IMG/VR virus record: IMGVR_UViG_3300027801_000056
Location: 1 to 39,940 of that record
Direction: 5' to 3' (one strand)
Length of the DNA stretch: 39,940 bases
From: a virus
Made by a program: the position numbers and the translations under genes. The notes beneath the pieces were generated by a model. The model ran no database searches, was not told the DNA's origin, and saw only the letters and a list, made by a program, of their open reading frames with translations. Below are positions 9,980 to 32,422 of the stretch, in pieces. The first letter of the stretch is position 1, and each line of letters begins with the position of its first letter.

Positions 9980-10011
9980 TTAGGATATATGAAAATCTTT
10001 TCGTATATTTG
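9980..10011 (+). promoter_or_regulatory. Phage promoter 4, near-copy of promoter 3
   Basis: TTAGGATAT begins at 9980 and a perfect Bacteroidetes -7 TATATTTG at 10004 (spacing 24). The ATG at 10048 lies 37 nt after the -7 box. The promoter and leader repeat that at 8309 with only a few differences. Confidence 0.8.
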
Positions 10012-10494: not shown

Positions 10495-11016
10495 ATGAAA
10501 AATTTAAGATTTTTTAATAGTACAGAATTACACATCCAAAAATCAGTTCAATCCTCATCAGTTCATGCAAACGGAAGTGCATTGGAACTAAGAGTGCAAC
10601 GTTATTTAGAATCAATGGGAATTCCTCATATTAAGGGAAAATCCAATGGAATTGATTTTATTATCAATGGTTCTGTGTACTTAGAATGTAAAGCTCAAAC
10701 CGTAAATGGTTCGATATGTGAAAAATTACCAACTTGTGCATTTAAATATATTGAAAAATATCATTTAAACGGTGGAGATATTTATTTCCTTCATCCATAT
10801 TCTTCAATCAATATTGCAACAGCAGGACATTTTGAATTATTGGAAAACGTATTGAATACTAAAATCCACGTACTAGATTGGAAAGATTTTACATATTTAA
10901 TGAATGGTGGTGTATTTAAAGAAAGAAAACCATATCGTATTGGAAAAGATGGTGGTGGAAATTATGCACCAACAAATTTCAAAATTAATGAATTCTTTAA
11001 ATTTCAAAATAAATAA
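10495..11016 (+). CDS. PD-(D/E)XK nuclease-like protein
   Basis: A 173-residue protein with a compact nuclease signature: an N-terminal helix with E31 (GSALELRVQRYLESMG), then GID (D54) and, ten residues later, ECKAQ (E64, K66). That spacing and the beta-hairpin between them match the PD-(D/E)XK catalytic core used by restriction enzymes, resolvases and Vsr-like repair nucleases. It lies directly upstream of the SSB/UvsX recombination block, so a role in DNA processing is reasonable. The substrate is unknown. Confidence 0.65.
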   Translation: MKNLRFFNSTELHIQKSVQSSSVHANGSALELRVQRYLESMGIPHIKGKSNGIDFIINGSVYLECKAQTVNGSICEKLPTCAFKYIEKYHLNGGDIYFLHPYSSINIATAGHFELLENVLNTKIHVLDWKDFTYLMNGGVFKERKPYRIGKDGGGNYAPTNFKINEFFKFQNK

Positions 11017-11023
11017 AATTAAA

Positions 11024-11055
11024 TTAGGATATACCAATTAATTGTTGTATCTTTA
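11024..11055 (+). promoter_or_regulatory. Phage promoter 5 (SSB promoter, TATCTTTA subclass)
   Basis: TTAGGATAT begins at 11024 and TATCTTTA at 11048 (spacing 24). The spacer and -7 box resemble promoter 11 (polymerase) far more than the other promoters, sharing attgttgtatcttt. It is followed by a long structured leader of about 180 nt. Confidence 0.75.
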
Positions 11056-11063
11056 CATAATAA

Positions 11064-11184
11064 ATGGGTGAGAGGTGTATCTCGAACTCATCAATAAATA
11101 GTTAACAACTTTAACAAAAAAAGTATAAGAAAATCGGTAAATCTTATACTTATATATACACCGAGTGTTACTAGTTTAGCACTC
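11064..11184 (+). promoter_or_regulatory. Structured 5' leader of the SSB gene (three hairpins)
   Basis: Three hairpins follow one another. The first, 11064-11091, pairs ATGGGTGAGA with TCTC-GA-ACTCAT (2-nt bulge, 6-nt loop). The second, 11121-11151, is a perfect 10-bp stem (AAGTATAAGA) with an 11-nt loop. The third, 11163-11184, has GAGTGTTA paired to TAGCACTC with one G-U pair. Most other leaders here are short. T4 gene 32 autoregulates through structure in its own leader, so this may do the same; that is inference. Confidence 0.6.
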
Positions 11185-26144: not shown

Positions 26145-26562
26145 GTATAAGTTTAAAAATAGAAAATTTCCAAAGGAATTTCAATCCGTATGTGATTATA
26201 TAAAAAGTACCAAAGGAGTTGTTGTCAAATTAGGACATATAACATCTTTTATGGGACACTTTAATCGCACTATATACATTCATCACAACTATGATTTAAC
26301 AAATAATGGATTATATGCCTTACTTCATGAAGTAGGACATTCATTACAACCACCTACTTCAGTTGGTTCAAACTCATATAAGAATATCGATGATGATTTA
26401 AACAAACGAGAGTTTGAAATGGGTAGGTTTGTAAATGAATTAGATGCATGGAAAATAGGATTAAATGTTGCCAAAGAATTAAATCTTAAAATAAATAACG
26501 ATGAATGGAATAATCAAAAAAATGAGGCTCTTCTTACTTACTGGCCTAATAACTCTAAGTAG
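26137..26562 (+). CDS. Zincin-like metallopeptidase
   Basis: A 141-residue protein with a zinc-peptidase HEXXH motif in LYALLHEVGHSLQPP (H64, E65, H68), preceded by a beta-strand stretch RTIYIHHNYDLTNNG, the arrangement of ImmA/IrrE-like and related small zincins. A third ligand is likely the Glu in NELDAWKIGLNV (about residue 100). No signal peptide is seen, so it would act in the cytoplasm, perhaps on a host regulator; that is inference. It overlaps the following lipoprotein gene by about 41 nt. Confidence 0.75.
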   Translation: MGKYKFKNRKFPKEFQSVCDYIKSTKGVVVKLGHITSFMGHFNRTIYIHHNYDLTNNGLYALLHEVGHSLQPPTSVGSNSYKNIDDDLNKREFEMGRFVNELDAWKIGLNVAKELNLKINNDEWNNQKNEALLTYWPNNSK

Positions 26563-27706
26563 TTGTGAAAAAGATGAATTTGATGGAATAGATATCCCAC
26601 CCCCTATATCTCAGACAATTTACAAAGAATCCTATTTAAATCAAAGAAGTGGAACATACTTCATTTGGGGAAATGGATCTGAAAGTTATAGTTTGAATAT
26701 CGGAAAAAATGAAACCGGTGGCACGTTGGAATTCTCACAAGGGGCATCATACTATGATGTAAACAATGATGGATTTCAAGATATTTTAGCATGTCCATAC
26801 TATGATGATGGTACAATACGAAGAGCATCTGCTCATTGGTTTATTAATGAAGGAGATGATAAAACTTACATAAAAGATTCTTCTTTTATAAATGTTAATA
26901 CGGATGGATTTACGGGACATAAGATATTAAAAACCGATGTAAATAATGACAATCTAGCTGATTTCATTTTATTGGGAGTTGATGAAAGTCAACCAGGAAA
27001 CTATGGAGGAAACTTTACGGTATTAATTCAACAACCAGATTCTACATTTAATGTTAATGAAATTGATAATGGATTTGGTCTATGGTATCATAACGGAGCT
27101 GCTGGAGATATTAACGGTGATGGGAATGTTGATGTGATAACTGCTCAATATATTTGGTATGGTGATGGTATTGGTAATTTTACAAATTCTAATTTTGATT
27201 TACATCAATATACCAATCCTATTTTAACGTATGAAATTATTGATATAAATAAAGATGGATTTAACGATATGGTATTGGGCACACATGAGATTTATGGATA
27301 TACTACATCAATTGTGCTTGGTAAATCAGATGGATTTGATACTTCAAATATAGTAATCCCACTCCCAAACACTAACACAGAATATACCATGGATATTGAA
27401 TTCATGGATATCGATAACGATGGTGATTTGGATATAATTGAAGGAAGATATGATGGTAGTAGCTCTGAACTTGTGTTATATATAAATAATAATTTAAATT
27501 TCACATTAGACACAACAATACTTTCAGAATCACCAGATGGCGGTGGTATAAATGGAAGTAGTGATAACTATGGATGGACTCAATTCAAAATAGATGACAT
27601 TGATAAAGATGGGGTTGATGATATTATTTGTGAAAATTATCATGATGGCATTTATAATGGATTGAAAATGATAAATGGAGTGTGGGTAAAACATACTTTT
27701 AATTAA
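26522..27706 (+). CDS. Lipoprotein with FG-GAP/VCBS repeats
   Basis: A 394-residue exported protein. I chose ATG 26522 instead of 26501 because it gives a clean lipoprotein signal MRLFLLTGLITLSSCEKDE with lipobox Cys. The rest is a repeat protein of FG-GAP/VCBS type. Calcium-loop motifs D-N-D-G or D-I-D-G recur at least six times: DVNNDGFQDI, DVNNDNLADF, DINGDGNVDV, DINKDGFNDM, DIDNDGDLDI and DIDKDGVDDI. Such domains form beta-propellers that bind Ca2+ and adhere to glycans. A phage copy would sit in the host envelope and may alter the cell surface. Confidence 0.8.
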   Translation: MRLFLLTGLITLSSCEKDEFDGIDIPPPISQTIYKESYLNQRSGTYFIWGNGSESYSLNIGKNETGGTLEFSQGASYYDVNNDGFQDILACPYYDDGTIRRASAHWFINEGDDKTYIKDSSFINVNTDGFTGHKILKTDVNNDNLADFILLGVDESQPGNYGGNFTVLIQQPDSTFNVNEIDNGFGLWYHNGAAGDINGDGNVDVITAQYIWYGDGIGNFTNSNFDLHQYTNPILTYEIIDINKDGFNDMVLGTHEIYGYTTSIVLGKSDGFDTSNIVIPLPNTNTEYTMDIEFMDIDNDGDLDIIEGRYDGSSSELVLYINNNLNFTLDTTILSESPDGGGINGSSDNYGWTQFKIDDIDKDGVDDIICENYHDGIYNGLKMINGVWVKHTFN

Positions 27707-27723
27707 AAATAATTACAAAACAA

Positions 27724-27755
27724 TTAGGATACATCAATAAATTGTTGTATCTTTG
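27724..27755 (+). promoter_or_regulatory. Phage promoter 11 (polymerase, TATCTTTG subclass)
   Basis: TTAGGATAC begins at 27724 and TATCTTTG at 27748 (spacing 24). Its spacer (aataaattgttg) and -7 box resemble the SSB promoter. The expected start codon of the polymerase lies 34-37 nt after the -7 box, the same as at promoter 4. Confidence 0.75.
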
Positions 27756-27788
27756 TATTAATAAAAATAATAACACTTAAAAACTAAA

Positions 27789-30308
27789 GTTATTTATCAA
27801 AATATCTATTATCAACGAGAAAAGAACTTAATACATCTTTGGGATGATCAGAGAGGTTATAGTGCATTTCCATATACACGATATGCATATGAACATGCAA
27901 AACGAGGTGAGTATAAATCTATATATGGTGACAACTTAACTAAGATTTACAAATTCAAAGGAGATGATCCTACTTTGTTTGAATCTGATGTACCTGAAAC
28001 CACACGAGCATTAGTAGATATGTATTCCGATACGGATAATGTATCTACTGGTCATATCATTCTTACTTATGATATTGAGTGTGAAATGACAAGTGGTATA
28101 CCAGACCCATTAGAAGCTACAAACGAATTAACATCAATTGCACTTCATGATTCTGCTACCAACCAATATTGGGTATTGGTGATGGATAAAGAAGGAAAGA
28201 TGTTAGAAAAAACAACAGATAAGGCAATTGTACTTCCTTTCAGAACCGAAGAAGAGATGTTAATAAAATATCTTGAATTGTATGAAATGATTAATCCTTC
28301 AATCGTTACAGGATGGAATATTGATTTCTTTGATACACCTATGTTATACAATCGTATTAAACGATTGATGGGAGAAAAACAAGCAAATAGATTATCTCCA
28401 ATAGGACAATGTTTCTGGTCACCTTATCGTAAGAGATATTTCATGGCCGGTGTATCTTATTTGGATTACATCACATTATATAAGAATTACAATTTTGGTG
28501 AACTTGCAAATTATCGATTAGATACAGTTGCTCAGAAAGAATTGGGCAGAGGTAAAATAGAATACCAAGGAAACTTGGATGAGTTATTTAAAGAAGATAT
28601 TGAAAAGTTCATTGAGTATAACTTGGTGGATGTTGAATTGGTTGTGGGATTTGAAGAAAAACTACAATTCATTGATTTATGTAGAGGTATCTGTCATGCT
28701 GGACACGTTCCGTATGAAGATTTTGTATATTCATCAAAGTATCTTGAGGGTGCAATGTTAACCTATCTTCGTAGAAAAGGATTAGTTGCATGTAACAAAC
28801 CTGCTGATAGGAGAGAACGAATGGAAGCTCTTAAAGCAAACAAACAAGAAAAATTCATTGGGGCTTATGTAAAGGCACCAATTGTTGGTAAATATGAATG
28901 GATTTATGATTTAGATTTAACATCTCTATATCCTTCAATCATTATGAGTATCAACATATCACCCGAAACCAAAATCGGTAAGATTAAAGATTGGGATGCA
29001 AATGAATTTATAAAAGGTAGTGTTGATACATATCAAATTGATGATGATACAATTACAAAAGAAAATTTAAAAGAATATTTAGAAAAATCTAAATTCGCAA
29101 TCGCATCAAATGGAGTATTATACAGAACAGACACCGTTGGGTGCATTCCTGGTATACTTGATTTGTGGTTTAAGAAGAGGGTTGAGTATAAAGATGAAAT
29201 GGTAAAATATGGAAAAGCAGGAAACAAAGAAAAATATGCCTTCTATCACAAACGTCAGTTGGTTCAGAAGATTTTACTTAACTCTTTATATGGGGTGCTT
29301 GGTCTTCCTGCCTTTAGGTTCTATGATGTTGATAATGCTACCGCTGTTACCACGACAGGACAGACAGTTATTAAATCAACTGCTGATATGGCTAACATCA
29401 AGTACAACAAGGAATTGGGTACTCCTGATTTGGATTCTAATATATACATCGATACTGATTCTGTATTCTTCTCCGCAGTTCCTTTAATGGATAAACGACT
29501 TCCTAATTGGAAAAATGAAGAACAAGATGTAATTGCTGGTTATGTAAATGATATTGCAGAAGAAATGCAAGATTACCTCAATGATTTCTATGATATCCTA
29601 TCTAAAAAGGTATTCAATATAGATAAAGATAAACACAGATTAGAAATTAAAATGGAAAATGTTGCAAAAGCAGGATTGTGGATTGCAAAGAAAAGATATG
29701 CACAATGGATTATATCAGATAATGGTGTACCATGTGATAAGTTGGATGTAAAAGGATTGGATGTTAAGCGTTCATCGTTCCCAAAGGCATTTCAAGAATG
29801 TATGGGAAAAGTTTTGATTGATATACTGAAGGGTGTTTCTGAGGAAGAACTTACAGAATATGTATTGGATTTCAAAAAGAATATGGTAAATAGACCTAAC
29901 TCTGAAATCGCTAAGAATACGGCAGTAAAGAATCTTAAGAAATATATGCCGAAAGGTAAACGAGTACCATTTACTACAATGAAAGGAACTCCTGCTCACG
30001 TAAAAGCAGCAATTGCATATAATGACCTTATAAAACATTTTGATGTACCGTTCAAATACGGACCGATGGTAAATGGTGATAAAGTAAAGTGGGTATATCT
30101 TAAAACAAATCCATTAGGATTAAATGGTTTAGCATTTACTGGTTGGAAAGACCCACCAGAAATAGAAGAGTTTATAAACACCTACATAGACCACAACAAA
30201 ATCTTTGAAAGAGAGTTACGATTCAAGTTACAAGATTTCTATGATGCAATTGGATGGGGAGAAATGATTAGTGAACAAAAGACAGCAGAAAAGTTTTTTA
30301 CCTTTTAA
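27789..30308 (+). CDS. Replicative DNA polymerase, family B (T4 gp43-like)
   Basis: A complete family B polymerase of about 839 residues. Exonuclease motifs are DIECEM (Exo I), GWNIDFFDTPMLYNR (Exo II) and YNLVDVELV (Exo III). Polymerase motifs are DLDLTSLYPSIIMS (A), KILLNSLYGVLG (B) and YIDTDSVFF (C). The first ATG/GTG/TTG in frame is TTG 27975, but the frame is open back to a stop at 27771-27773. The 62 codons from 27789 encode a typical gp43 N-terminus (IYQNIYYQREKNLIHLWDD). The start must therefore be unusual: GTT 27789 or ATT 27792. It ends with an apparent clamp-interaction-like FFTF. It is the main replicase, working with gp45 and gp44/62. Confidence 0.9.
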   Translation, partial: VIYQNIYYQREKNLIHLWDDQRGYSAFPYTRYAYEHAKRGEYKSIYGDNLTKIYKFKGDDPTLFESDVPETTRALVDMYSDTDNVSTGHIILTYDIECEMTSGIPDPLEATNELTSIALHDSATNQYWVLVMDKEGKMLEKTTDKAIVLPFRTEEEMLIKYLELYEMINPSIVTGWNIDFFDTPMLYNRIKRLMGEKQANRLSPIGQCFWSPYRKRYFMAGVSYLDYITLYKNYNFGELANYRLDTVAQKELGRGKIEYQGNLDELFKEDIEKFIEYNLVDVELVVGFEEKLQFIDLCRGICHAGHVPYEDFVYSSKYLEGAMLTYLRRKGLVACNKPADRRERMEALKANKQEKFIGAYVKAPIVGKYEWIYDLDLTSLYPSIIMSINISPETKIGKIKDWDANEFIKGSVDTYQIDDDTITKENLKEYLEKSKFAIASNGVLYRTDTVGCIPGILDLWFKKRVEYKDEMVKYGKAGNKEKYAFYHKRQLVQKILLNSLYGVLGLPAFRFYDVDNATAVTTTGQTVIKSTADMANIKYNKELGTPDLDSNIYIDTDSVFFSAVPLMDKRLPNWKNEEQDVIAGYVNDIAEEMQDYLNDFYDILSKKVFNIDKDKHRLEIKMENVAKAGLWIAKKRYAQWIISDNGVPCDKLDVKGLDVKRSSFPKAFQECMGKVLIDILKGVSEEELTEYVLDFKKNMVNRPNSEIAKNTAVKNLKKYMPKGKRVPFTTMKGTPAHVKAAIAYNDLIKHFDVPFKYGPMVNGDKVKWVYLKTNPLGLNGLAFTGWKDPPEIEEFINTYIDHNKIFERELRFKLQDFYDAIGWGEMISEQKTAEKFFTF

Positions 30309-30802: not shown

Positions 30803-32422
30803 ATGGCAGTAAAACAATTAAAGTTTGATGTAGCGGCAAGAGAATCTTTAAAGATAGGTTTGGATACATTGGCAGATGCAGTAAAAGTTACATTAGGACC
30901 AAAGGGTAGAAATGTACTATTACAGAAAGAACATGGCCAACCACATATTACAAAAGATGGTGTAACTGTAGCTAAAACAATAGAGTTAGAAGATGTTTTT
31001 GAAAACATGGGAGCTCAATTAGTTAAAGAAGTTGCTTCCAAAACAGGAGAAGAAGCCGGAGATGGAACAACAACCGCAACGGTTCTCGCACAAGAAATAG
31101 CAAGATTAGGATTTGAATACGTAGAAAACGGGTCAAACCCAATGGAACTTAAAAAGGGAATAGATGAGGCCGTTAAGTTGGTAGTAACTGATTTAGAAAA
31201 ACAAGCAATTGTTGTAGGTTCTGATTATGATAAAATAAAACAAATTGCAACAATATCTGCAAACAATGATACTATAATTGGTGAATTAATCGCAGATGCT
31301 TTCCAAAAGGTTGGTACTGATGGAGTAATCACAGTTGAGGAATCTAAGGGTATCCAAACTTCAATGGAACTTGTAGAAGGAATGCAATTTGATAAGGGAT
31401 ACTTATCCGCTCACTTCGTAACCAATGTAGATAAAATGGCATCTGATTTAGAAAATCCATACATCTTATTATATGATGGTAGGTTATCTAATATGAATGA
31501 CATTTTAACGTTGCTAGAAGGTATATCAGGTGAAAGTAAACCTATCCTTATTATAGCAGATGATGTAGAGGGAGAACTACTTGGAACACTTGTAGTTAAC
31601 AAACTTAGAGGAACACTTAAGGTTTGTGCAGTTAAATCACCTGCATTTGGTGATAGAAAGAAGGAAATGATGAATGATATAGCAGTATTAACTGGTGGTA
31701 CATTCATTTCCTCGGAAGTTGGATTGAAAATAGAAGAAGCTGATATATCAATGTTGGGAACGGCAGAAAAAGTTACTATCGGTAAAGATTCTACTACAAT
31801 TGTAAATGGAGGAGGTAATTCGGAAGAAATAGTTAAACGAATTGAACAAATCAAATCACAAATAGAAACTACTACATCAGATTATGACAAAGAAAAACTT
31901 CAAGAAAGATTAGCCAAATTAAGTGGTGGTGTTGCAGTCCTTTATATAGGAGCTGGTTCTGAAGTTGAGATGAAGGAGAAAAAAGATAGAGTAGATGATG
32001 CACTTCACGCTACACGAGCAGGTATTGCTGAGGGTATTGTTGAAGGGGGTGGAATTGCATTATTAAAAGCATCTGATTCTTTACTAAACGTAGAGTTGAA
32101 TGAATCAACTTCATTTAAAGATGGATATGATATTCTATACACTGCACTTTCGGCACCAATTTCACAAATTCTAAAAAATTGTGGTGTAACTGAAGATTCG
32201 GTTCTTCTTTATATTAAAGAAAACGGCGGTGGATATGATGCAAAAAACGAAAAGTTTGTAGATATGTTCGAAGCTGGTATCATTGACCCTAAGAAAGTAA
32301 CACGAATTGCACTTGAAAACGCAGCATCTGTTGCAGGGATGATATTAACTACCGAGTGTATGGTTGTTAACAAACCAGAAGAGAAACCACACTTTCCTAT
32401 GATGCAAATCCCAGGAATGTAA
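30803..32422 (+). CDS. groEL: Phage-encoded GroEL chaperonin
   Basis: A 539-residue chaperonin, close to the bacterial length (548). ATPase residues match GroEL numbering: [14 protein letters not shown] with D52, [14 protein letters not shown] with D87, and [20 protein letters not shown] near residue 396 for the third catalytic Asp. It forms a double ring that folds proteins inside a cage with GroES. The C-terminus ends in PMMQIPGM with no Gly-Gly-Met repeat tail. A GroES gene is present at 35093, so both halves are phage-encoded but not adjacent. It probably folds capsid or polymerase proteins. Confidence 0.96.

Follow-up and report, generated by a model that had tools for sequence, protein, structure and literature searches.

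A T4-type phage DNA polymerase gene with a probable AUU start codon and the recurrence of weak starts among its relatives

The polymerase gene polB of an uncultivated virus, whose 39,940-base linear record is referred to here as the window, almost certainly begins at an AUU codon, as judged from its alignment with related sequences. It belongs to a group of environmental phages which repeatedly start polB at AUU, AUC or UUG while partner genes start at AUG, and this habit probably holds the polymerase down. Comparison with relatives shows where translation starts, that the AUU start recurs, that it is confined to polB among the genes that were scored, and that it is paired with a ribosome-recruiting element. 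To our knowledge, very few bacterial genes have been described with an AUU start. No phage polymerase starting at AUU was found in the open-licence literature by title and abstract, a search that does not prove its absence.

The polymerase gene and its start codon

The protein encoded by polB is a complete member of the T4-type family B polymerases (gp43), since both the polymerase and the 3'-5' exonuclease domains are present (PF00136, 131 bits; PF03104, 64.5 bits; Pfam); the match to PHROG 262 spans residues 6 to 836. A structure model with a mean pLDDT of 48 was given no weight. Directly upstream of polB, positions 26501-27706 encode an FG-GAP repeat protein without a PHROG match.

A preliminary description of the window had read the frame as open upstream to 27774 and devoid of in-frame ATG, GTG or TTG between 27789 and 27974, and both statements are correct: the stop codon TAA at 27771-27773 is followed by CAC TTA AAA ACT AAA GTT ATT TAT CAA AAT ATC TAT, and the earliest canonical codon in frame is TTG 27975. 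GTT 27789 and ATT 27792 had been proposed as possible starts. Only ATT holds, because it aligns with the ATG or TTG starts of relatives. The codon in front of it differs among the AUU phages (GTT, GCT, CTT, GTC, ATT, AAT), which argues against GTT 27789. To the earlier question whether relatives have ATG at 27789, the alignment answers that their start falls on ATT 27792 and, in a few of them, one codon earlier. The polymerase of Microcystis phage Mel-JY01 is 52% identical to the window protein across 838 residues, and its annotated ATG aligns exactly with the ATT codon. Initiation of polB at AUU is thus strongly supported by comparison with relatives, and the window gene resembles infC in that AUU stands where relatives have AUG and no other start is available. 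The features discussed here are listed in Table 1.

Table 1. Features at the start of polB in the window
Feature	Position	Strand	Remarks
Bacteroidetes-type promoter (putative)	27724..27755	+	TTAGG -33 region; -7 box TATCTTTG at 27748-27755; pattern scan
Proposed stem AATAAC/GTTATT	27769..27794	+	Unsupported as a functional element
A-rich leader CTTAAAAACTAAA	27776..27788	+	A at -11, -12 and -13 of ATT (27779-27781)
polB start codon ATT (predicted)	27792..27794	+	Aligned with ATG/TTG starts of relatives and of Mel-JY01
T4-type family B DNA polymerase (polB)	27792..30308	+	838 codons and stop; PF00136, PF03104, PHROG 262

The putative promoter layout of polB recurs before several window genes in the pattern scan. 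A spacing of 37 nt between the end of the -7 box and the start, which had been pointed out for ATT 27792 and for one other gene, was found again, the second case being ATG 10048 with a box ending at 10011. The promoter region (27693-27765) is 80% identical to the intergenic stretch 10992-11064, where the -7 box reads TATCTTTA. In the polB loci of nine relatives (L015, L023, L025, L029, L031, L033, L036, L137 and L169), 5 nt separate the end of the -7 box from the codon that contains the ATG or comes just ahead of it, and judged by this spacing their polB transcripts may have no leader or hardly any.

Start codons among related phages

Relatives were collected from IMG/VR, and the start codons counted here are a sample, with figures that hold among the matches listed. 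Of the 80 relatives listed, 79 reach the start and align with the window through the first codons; they place ATG or TTG on the ATT of the window, a few of them one codon earlier, and five have ATT themselves. A wider census by codon-blind searches, in which the window was left out, identical regions were merged and regions with less than 30 nt upstream were skipped, yielded 119 distinct start regions among the matches listed, with 4 of 280 loci off-pattern. ATG was found in 72 regions, TTG in 26, ATT in 11, ATC in three and GTG in one, and in the remaining six, GCA or GCG stands at this position directly behind an ATG. No other codon was seen at the polB start in these 119 regions. Free drift would not have kept the polB start codon within one base of ATG. 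A codon-specific search for ATT at this position returned 14 contigs, no two of which share a metagenome number, and searches for ATA and CTG at the same position found neither. In all 15 AUU contigs, the window included, no in-frame ATG, GTG or TTG lies between the upstream stop and the ATT. The 14 ATT regions considered below comprise the 11 of the census, the window and two found by the codon-specific search alone.

When the start codons are mapped on a tree of 117 polB protein rows, nine changes are needed for ATT, ten for AUU and AUC taken together and 23 for all start labels; the starred branches alone force nine changes for ATT. The tree was built quickly and without bootstraps after removal of three short rows, and two of its rows sit on long branches. 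ATT is found on deep branches (L083, L087, L085, L091) as well as on shallow ones (the window, L003, L077). The AUU start may be old and often lost, or it may have been gained repeatedly. The AUU leaders without a Shine-Dalgarno sequence resemble each other more than random sets do (five representatives, the motif having first been spotted by eye), and this shared leader speaks for an old or exchanged module. In L083 (281-2218, minus strand), the polB frame ends after 646 residues and unlike sequence is inserted; the interruption is perhaps an intein, an intron or a split gene.

Weak starts and the other genes of the same contigs

As a control, open frames from 182 of the 280 loci (contained loci removed) were clustered, and families of six or more members were scored. 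Poor alignment led to the removal of three of the 99 polB rows and of 49 rows from other families, and 11 further rows were removed as gaps. The 96 polB starts scored comprise 59 ATG, 24 TTG, ten ATT, two ATC and one GTG, and the 500 starts of the other families 481 ATG, 17 TTG and two GTG; the figure of 17 TTG is an upper bound, since several come from families with an unclear start. AUU or AUC thus opens 12 of 96 polB genes and none of the 500 scored control genes. Fisher tests that ignore kinship gave p = 2e-19 for non-ATG starts and p = 2e-10 for AUU/AUC. Ten control rows had no canonical start (four CTA, three AAC, two AAT, one AGA; none AUH) and are probably misplaced starts; the families of three of them were inspected. 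Among the genes scored, AUU and AUC starts are therefore restricted to polB. The partner replication genes all carry ATG: the sliding clamp (75/75; a family named by a weak PHROG match), the clamp loader (37/37), the helicase (13/13) and UvsX (8/8).

Ribosome-recruiting elements before the weak starts

Translation initiation in Flavobacterium johnsoniae has been reported to depend on low structure, on A-3 and A-6 and on an upstream A-motif at -12/-13 (PMC8710568). The window leader shows two initiation signals of Bacteroidia, the A-12/A-13 motif and low structure. A at -11 to -13 is invariant in the seven AUU leaders without a Shine-Dalgarno sequence, and A-12 together with A-13 is present before all 40 weak starts that lack one (7/7 ATT, 3/3 ATC, 30/30 TTG), compared with 14 of 66 ATG polB genes and 150 of 500 control starts. 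These positions were counted from the aligned start, and because the phages are related the counts are not independent. Counted by lineage, the motif is present in 14 of 14 weak-start lineages and in five of ten ATG polB lineages, a modest contrast (p = 0.006); against the 150 of 500 controls, p is 8e-8. A-3, the other F. johnsoniae element, is found at just one of the seven AUU starts without a Shine-Dalgarno sequence. U at -1 precedes six of seven ATT codons without and six of seven with a Shine-Dalgarno sequence, 3/3 ATC and 24/30 TTG, compared with 255 of 500 controls and 17 of 66 ATG polB genes, which is suggestive of a preference for U before weak starts.

A second element, GGAGG, is located 5-7 nt before the ATT in seven of the 14 ATT regions. 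The window has no Shine-Dalgarno sequence before its AUU, and the GGAGG regions belong to three other lineages, with L091 carrying the A-motif too. Elsewhere Shine-Dalgarno sites are rare: they precede none of the 83 polB genes that begin at ATG or TTG, ten of 500 control starts (seven of them in one family with an unclear start) and none of the 61 genes of the L085 contig that were scored at canonical starts. Within the five GGAGG loci examined, a single further GGAGG stands at a suitable distance from a possible start; it belongs to a frame in L084, which is taken to lie inside a helicase gene.

Alternative explanations

The strongest competitor holds that AUU is the start but neutral, in that little polymerase is needed and weak starts come and go by drift, with no role in regulation. 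The occurrence of ATG, TTG, ATT, ATC and GTG among close relatives, together with the 23 label changes on the tree, would fit this view, and AUU may be tolerated rather than selected. However, the partner replication genes keep ATG in a comparable setting and a recruiting element always accompanies the weak starts, which makes neutrality a rather unlikely account. Much less probable is a hairpin operator of the gp43 type that covers the start and represses translation. The gp43 proteins of T4 and RB69 repress their own translation via a hairpin, and a weak stem over the window start had been proposed from the complementarity of AATAAC and GTTATT. The complementarity exists on paper, but the fold (-1.0 kcal/mol) is weaker than the mean of shuffled sequences (z = +0.76; 160 of 200 shuffles fold at least as well), and the pairs are broken without compensation in L083 and L093, as judged by eye from the alignment. 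The window thus does not show what a gp43 translational operator would have, a hairpin across the ribosome binding site that is both stable and conserved. The phage systems share with T4 and RB69 that the dose of the same polymerase would be set at translation initiation; they differ in that gp43 combines an AUG start with a hairpin operator, whereas the window gene has a weak codon and no stable hairpin.

Three further readings can practically be dismissed. A start at TTG 27975, the first canonical start in frame, would leave the preceding 61 codons untranslated, but over codons 2-61 dN is 0.07-0.20 and dS ranges from 0.8 to saturated (window against each of eight relatives), which indicates purifying selection on this segment; relatives start at the aligned ATG, and the codon aligned with TTG 27975 is TTA in 72, TTG in 21, CTT in 14, CTA in eight and CTG in two of 117 sequences including the window, thus an ordinary leucine codon. 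Frameshifting occurs in phages, and ribosomes could begin upstream in a different frame and then slip into that of polB, but the stretch from the -7 box to the ATT contains no ATG, GTG, TTG or CTG in any of its frames, and the upstream genes vary among the AUU lineages while the position of AUU is constant. A sequencing or assembly error of ATG, conceivable as the window comes from a single metagenome record, is contradicted by the 14 further contigs from as many metagenomes with ATT at the same codon. Tests were thus made of GTT 27789, of TTG 27975, of entry by frameshift, of a sequencing error and of the hairpin, and all five were rejected.

Proposed mechanism and known AUH starts

The preferred explanation is an AUU start combined with a recruiting element, which would result in a low polymerase level that depends on the state of initiation; we consider this likely. 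The ordinary initiator tRNA presumably reads AUU 27792 as formyl-methionine. The weak codon would lower initiation of polB, and a recruiting element at a fixed distance would make it usable, in the window through A-13, A-12 and A-11 in an unstructured leader and in some other lineages through a GGAGG Shine-Dalgarno sequence. The outcome would be a low dose of polymerase, made slowly and governed by how the host ribosome initiates, chiefly by free IF3, much as in infC. That AUU limits polymerase synthesis, proposed earlier as a deliberate restraint, is probable and finds indirect support in the recurrence of the codon, its concentration in polB and its pairing with recruiting elements, from which we infer the lowered dose; the GTT start and the hairpin of that proposal were given up. 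Sensitivity of polymerase synthesis to IF3 is, by analogy with known biochemistry, somewhat favoured over insensitivity. IF3 was reported to disfavour AUU read by the CAU anticodon (PMC10158994), and in Staphylococcus aureus, AUU and AUA starts with an extended Shine-Dalgarno sequence yielded, in poor medium, about 10% of what AUG gave (PMC13009471). A phage-borne initiation apparatus was also searched for: no tRNA gene, and hence no phage initiator tRNA, was found in the window or in 16 scanned loci, 12 of which are pieces of three virus records of L085, L087 and L088, and no IF3 gene was found in ten contigs.

For E. coli, one report names infC and pcnB as the only genes starting at AUU (PMC9410913). 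The infC gene of many Bacteroidota (L303-L417, L449-L468) seems to start at AUA, AUU or AUC, often after GGAGG. In 62 of 110 named loci, GGAGG is followed by one of these codons, the scan taking the first fitting codon after GGAGG, so that a shift by one codon may have exchanged AUU and AUA, and 40 of the 62 have no ATG, GTG or TTG before the conserved core. In a second set inspected by eye, 19 of 20 genomes lack these codons before an AUC at the expected place, and the Shine-Dalgarno sequence is weaker or absent. In a further set, the IF3 frame was found in 23 of 31 loci (none in eight), and GGAGG with AUA in only three of the 23. The likely hosts thus have a precedent for reading AUH starts, which annotation based on ATG, GTG and TTG would miss. 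The phage genes share with infC an AUH start, often with a Shine-Dalgarno sequence, in a dose-sensitive gene, and in the Bacteroidota loci examined infC has the same layout of GGAGG and AUH. However, infC is controlled by its own product, IF3, whereas the polymerase is no initiation factor, and most AUU lineages use the A-motif in place of a Shine-Dalgarno sequence rather than together with it. The conserved AUU/AUA starts described for cvfC1 and ccpN of S. aureus likewise pair a weak start with a strong upstream recruiting element (PMC13009471); those are bacterial genes with an extended Shine-Dalgarno sequence, whereas here a phage polymerase is concerned and half of the ATT regions have none.

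Host and ribosomal protein bS21

The host likely belongs to the phylum Bacteroidota, to which the promoter type, the A-motif, the AT-rich sequence and a GroEL match to Bacteroides phages point. The GroEL chaperonin gene (30803-32422) shows 68% DNA identity over about 1.2 kb to Bacteroides phages DAC16 and relatives. Phages of Bacteroidetes that encode bS21 have already been described (PMC9723584), and ribosomes without bS21 are reported to expose the anti-Shine-Dalgarno sequence (PMC9976891). Among the relatives, eight of 20 contigs searched encode bS21, including all five of 230 kb or more (records of L012, L068, L061, L184, L185, L206, L123 and L048; G001-G006, G014, G017), and none of nine further contigs of 17-47 kb does. 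No contig searched combines bS21 with a GGAGG polB start; neither the 71-kb contig of L085 nor the contigs of L091 and L092 gave a bS21 match. A link between bS21 and the GGAGG starts is a conjecture. It is tempting, if doubtful, to imagine that these phages key polymerase dose to the host initiation machinery, in that the AUU/AUC starts copy the infC design and read IF3 while the GGAGG starts favour ribosomes with a free anti-Shine-Dalgarno sequence, for example those without bS21. If true, the phage, by remodelling the ribosome itself, would at the same time switch polymerase synthesis. The rpsU gene, which encodes bS21, is described in Flavobacteriales as carrying an extended Shine-Dalgarno sequence (PMC9976891); it shares with the phage genes the use of this sequence as a special signal where other genes have none, but its pairing is much longer than that of the phage GGAGG.

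Significance

The polB starts are a real feature and draw on known initiation chemistry, which these phages apply over and over to a single gene. Since this one replisome gene is given AUU time and again across a group of phages and AUG is retained by the partner genes examined, the strength of the start codon looks like a setting to which polymerase dose has been tuned. Gene prediction restricted to ATG, GTG and TTG will truncate or miss the N-terminus of this polymerase. Moreover, the A-motif and Shine-Dalgarno lineages form a natural test set for what makes AUU usable, in phages whose likely hosts hide the anti-Shine-Dalgarno sequence.
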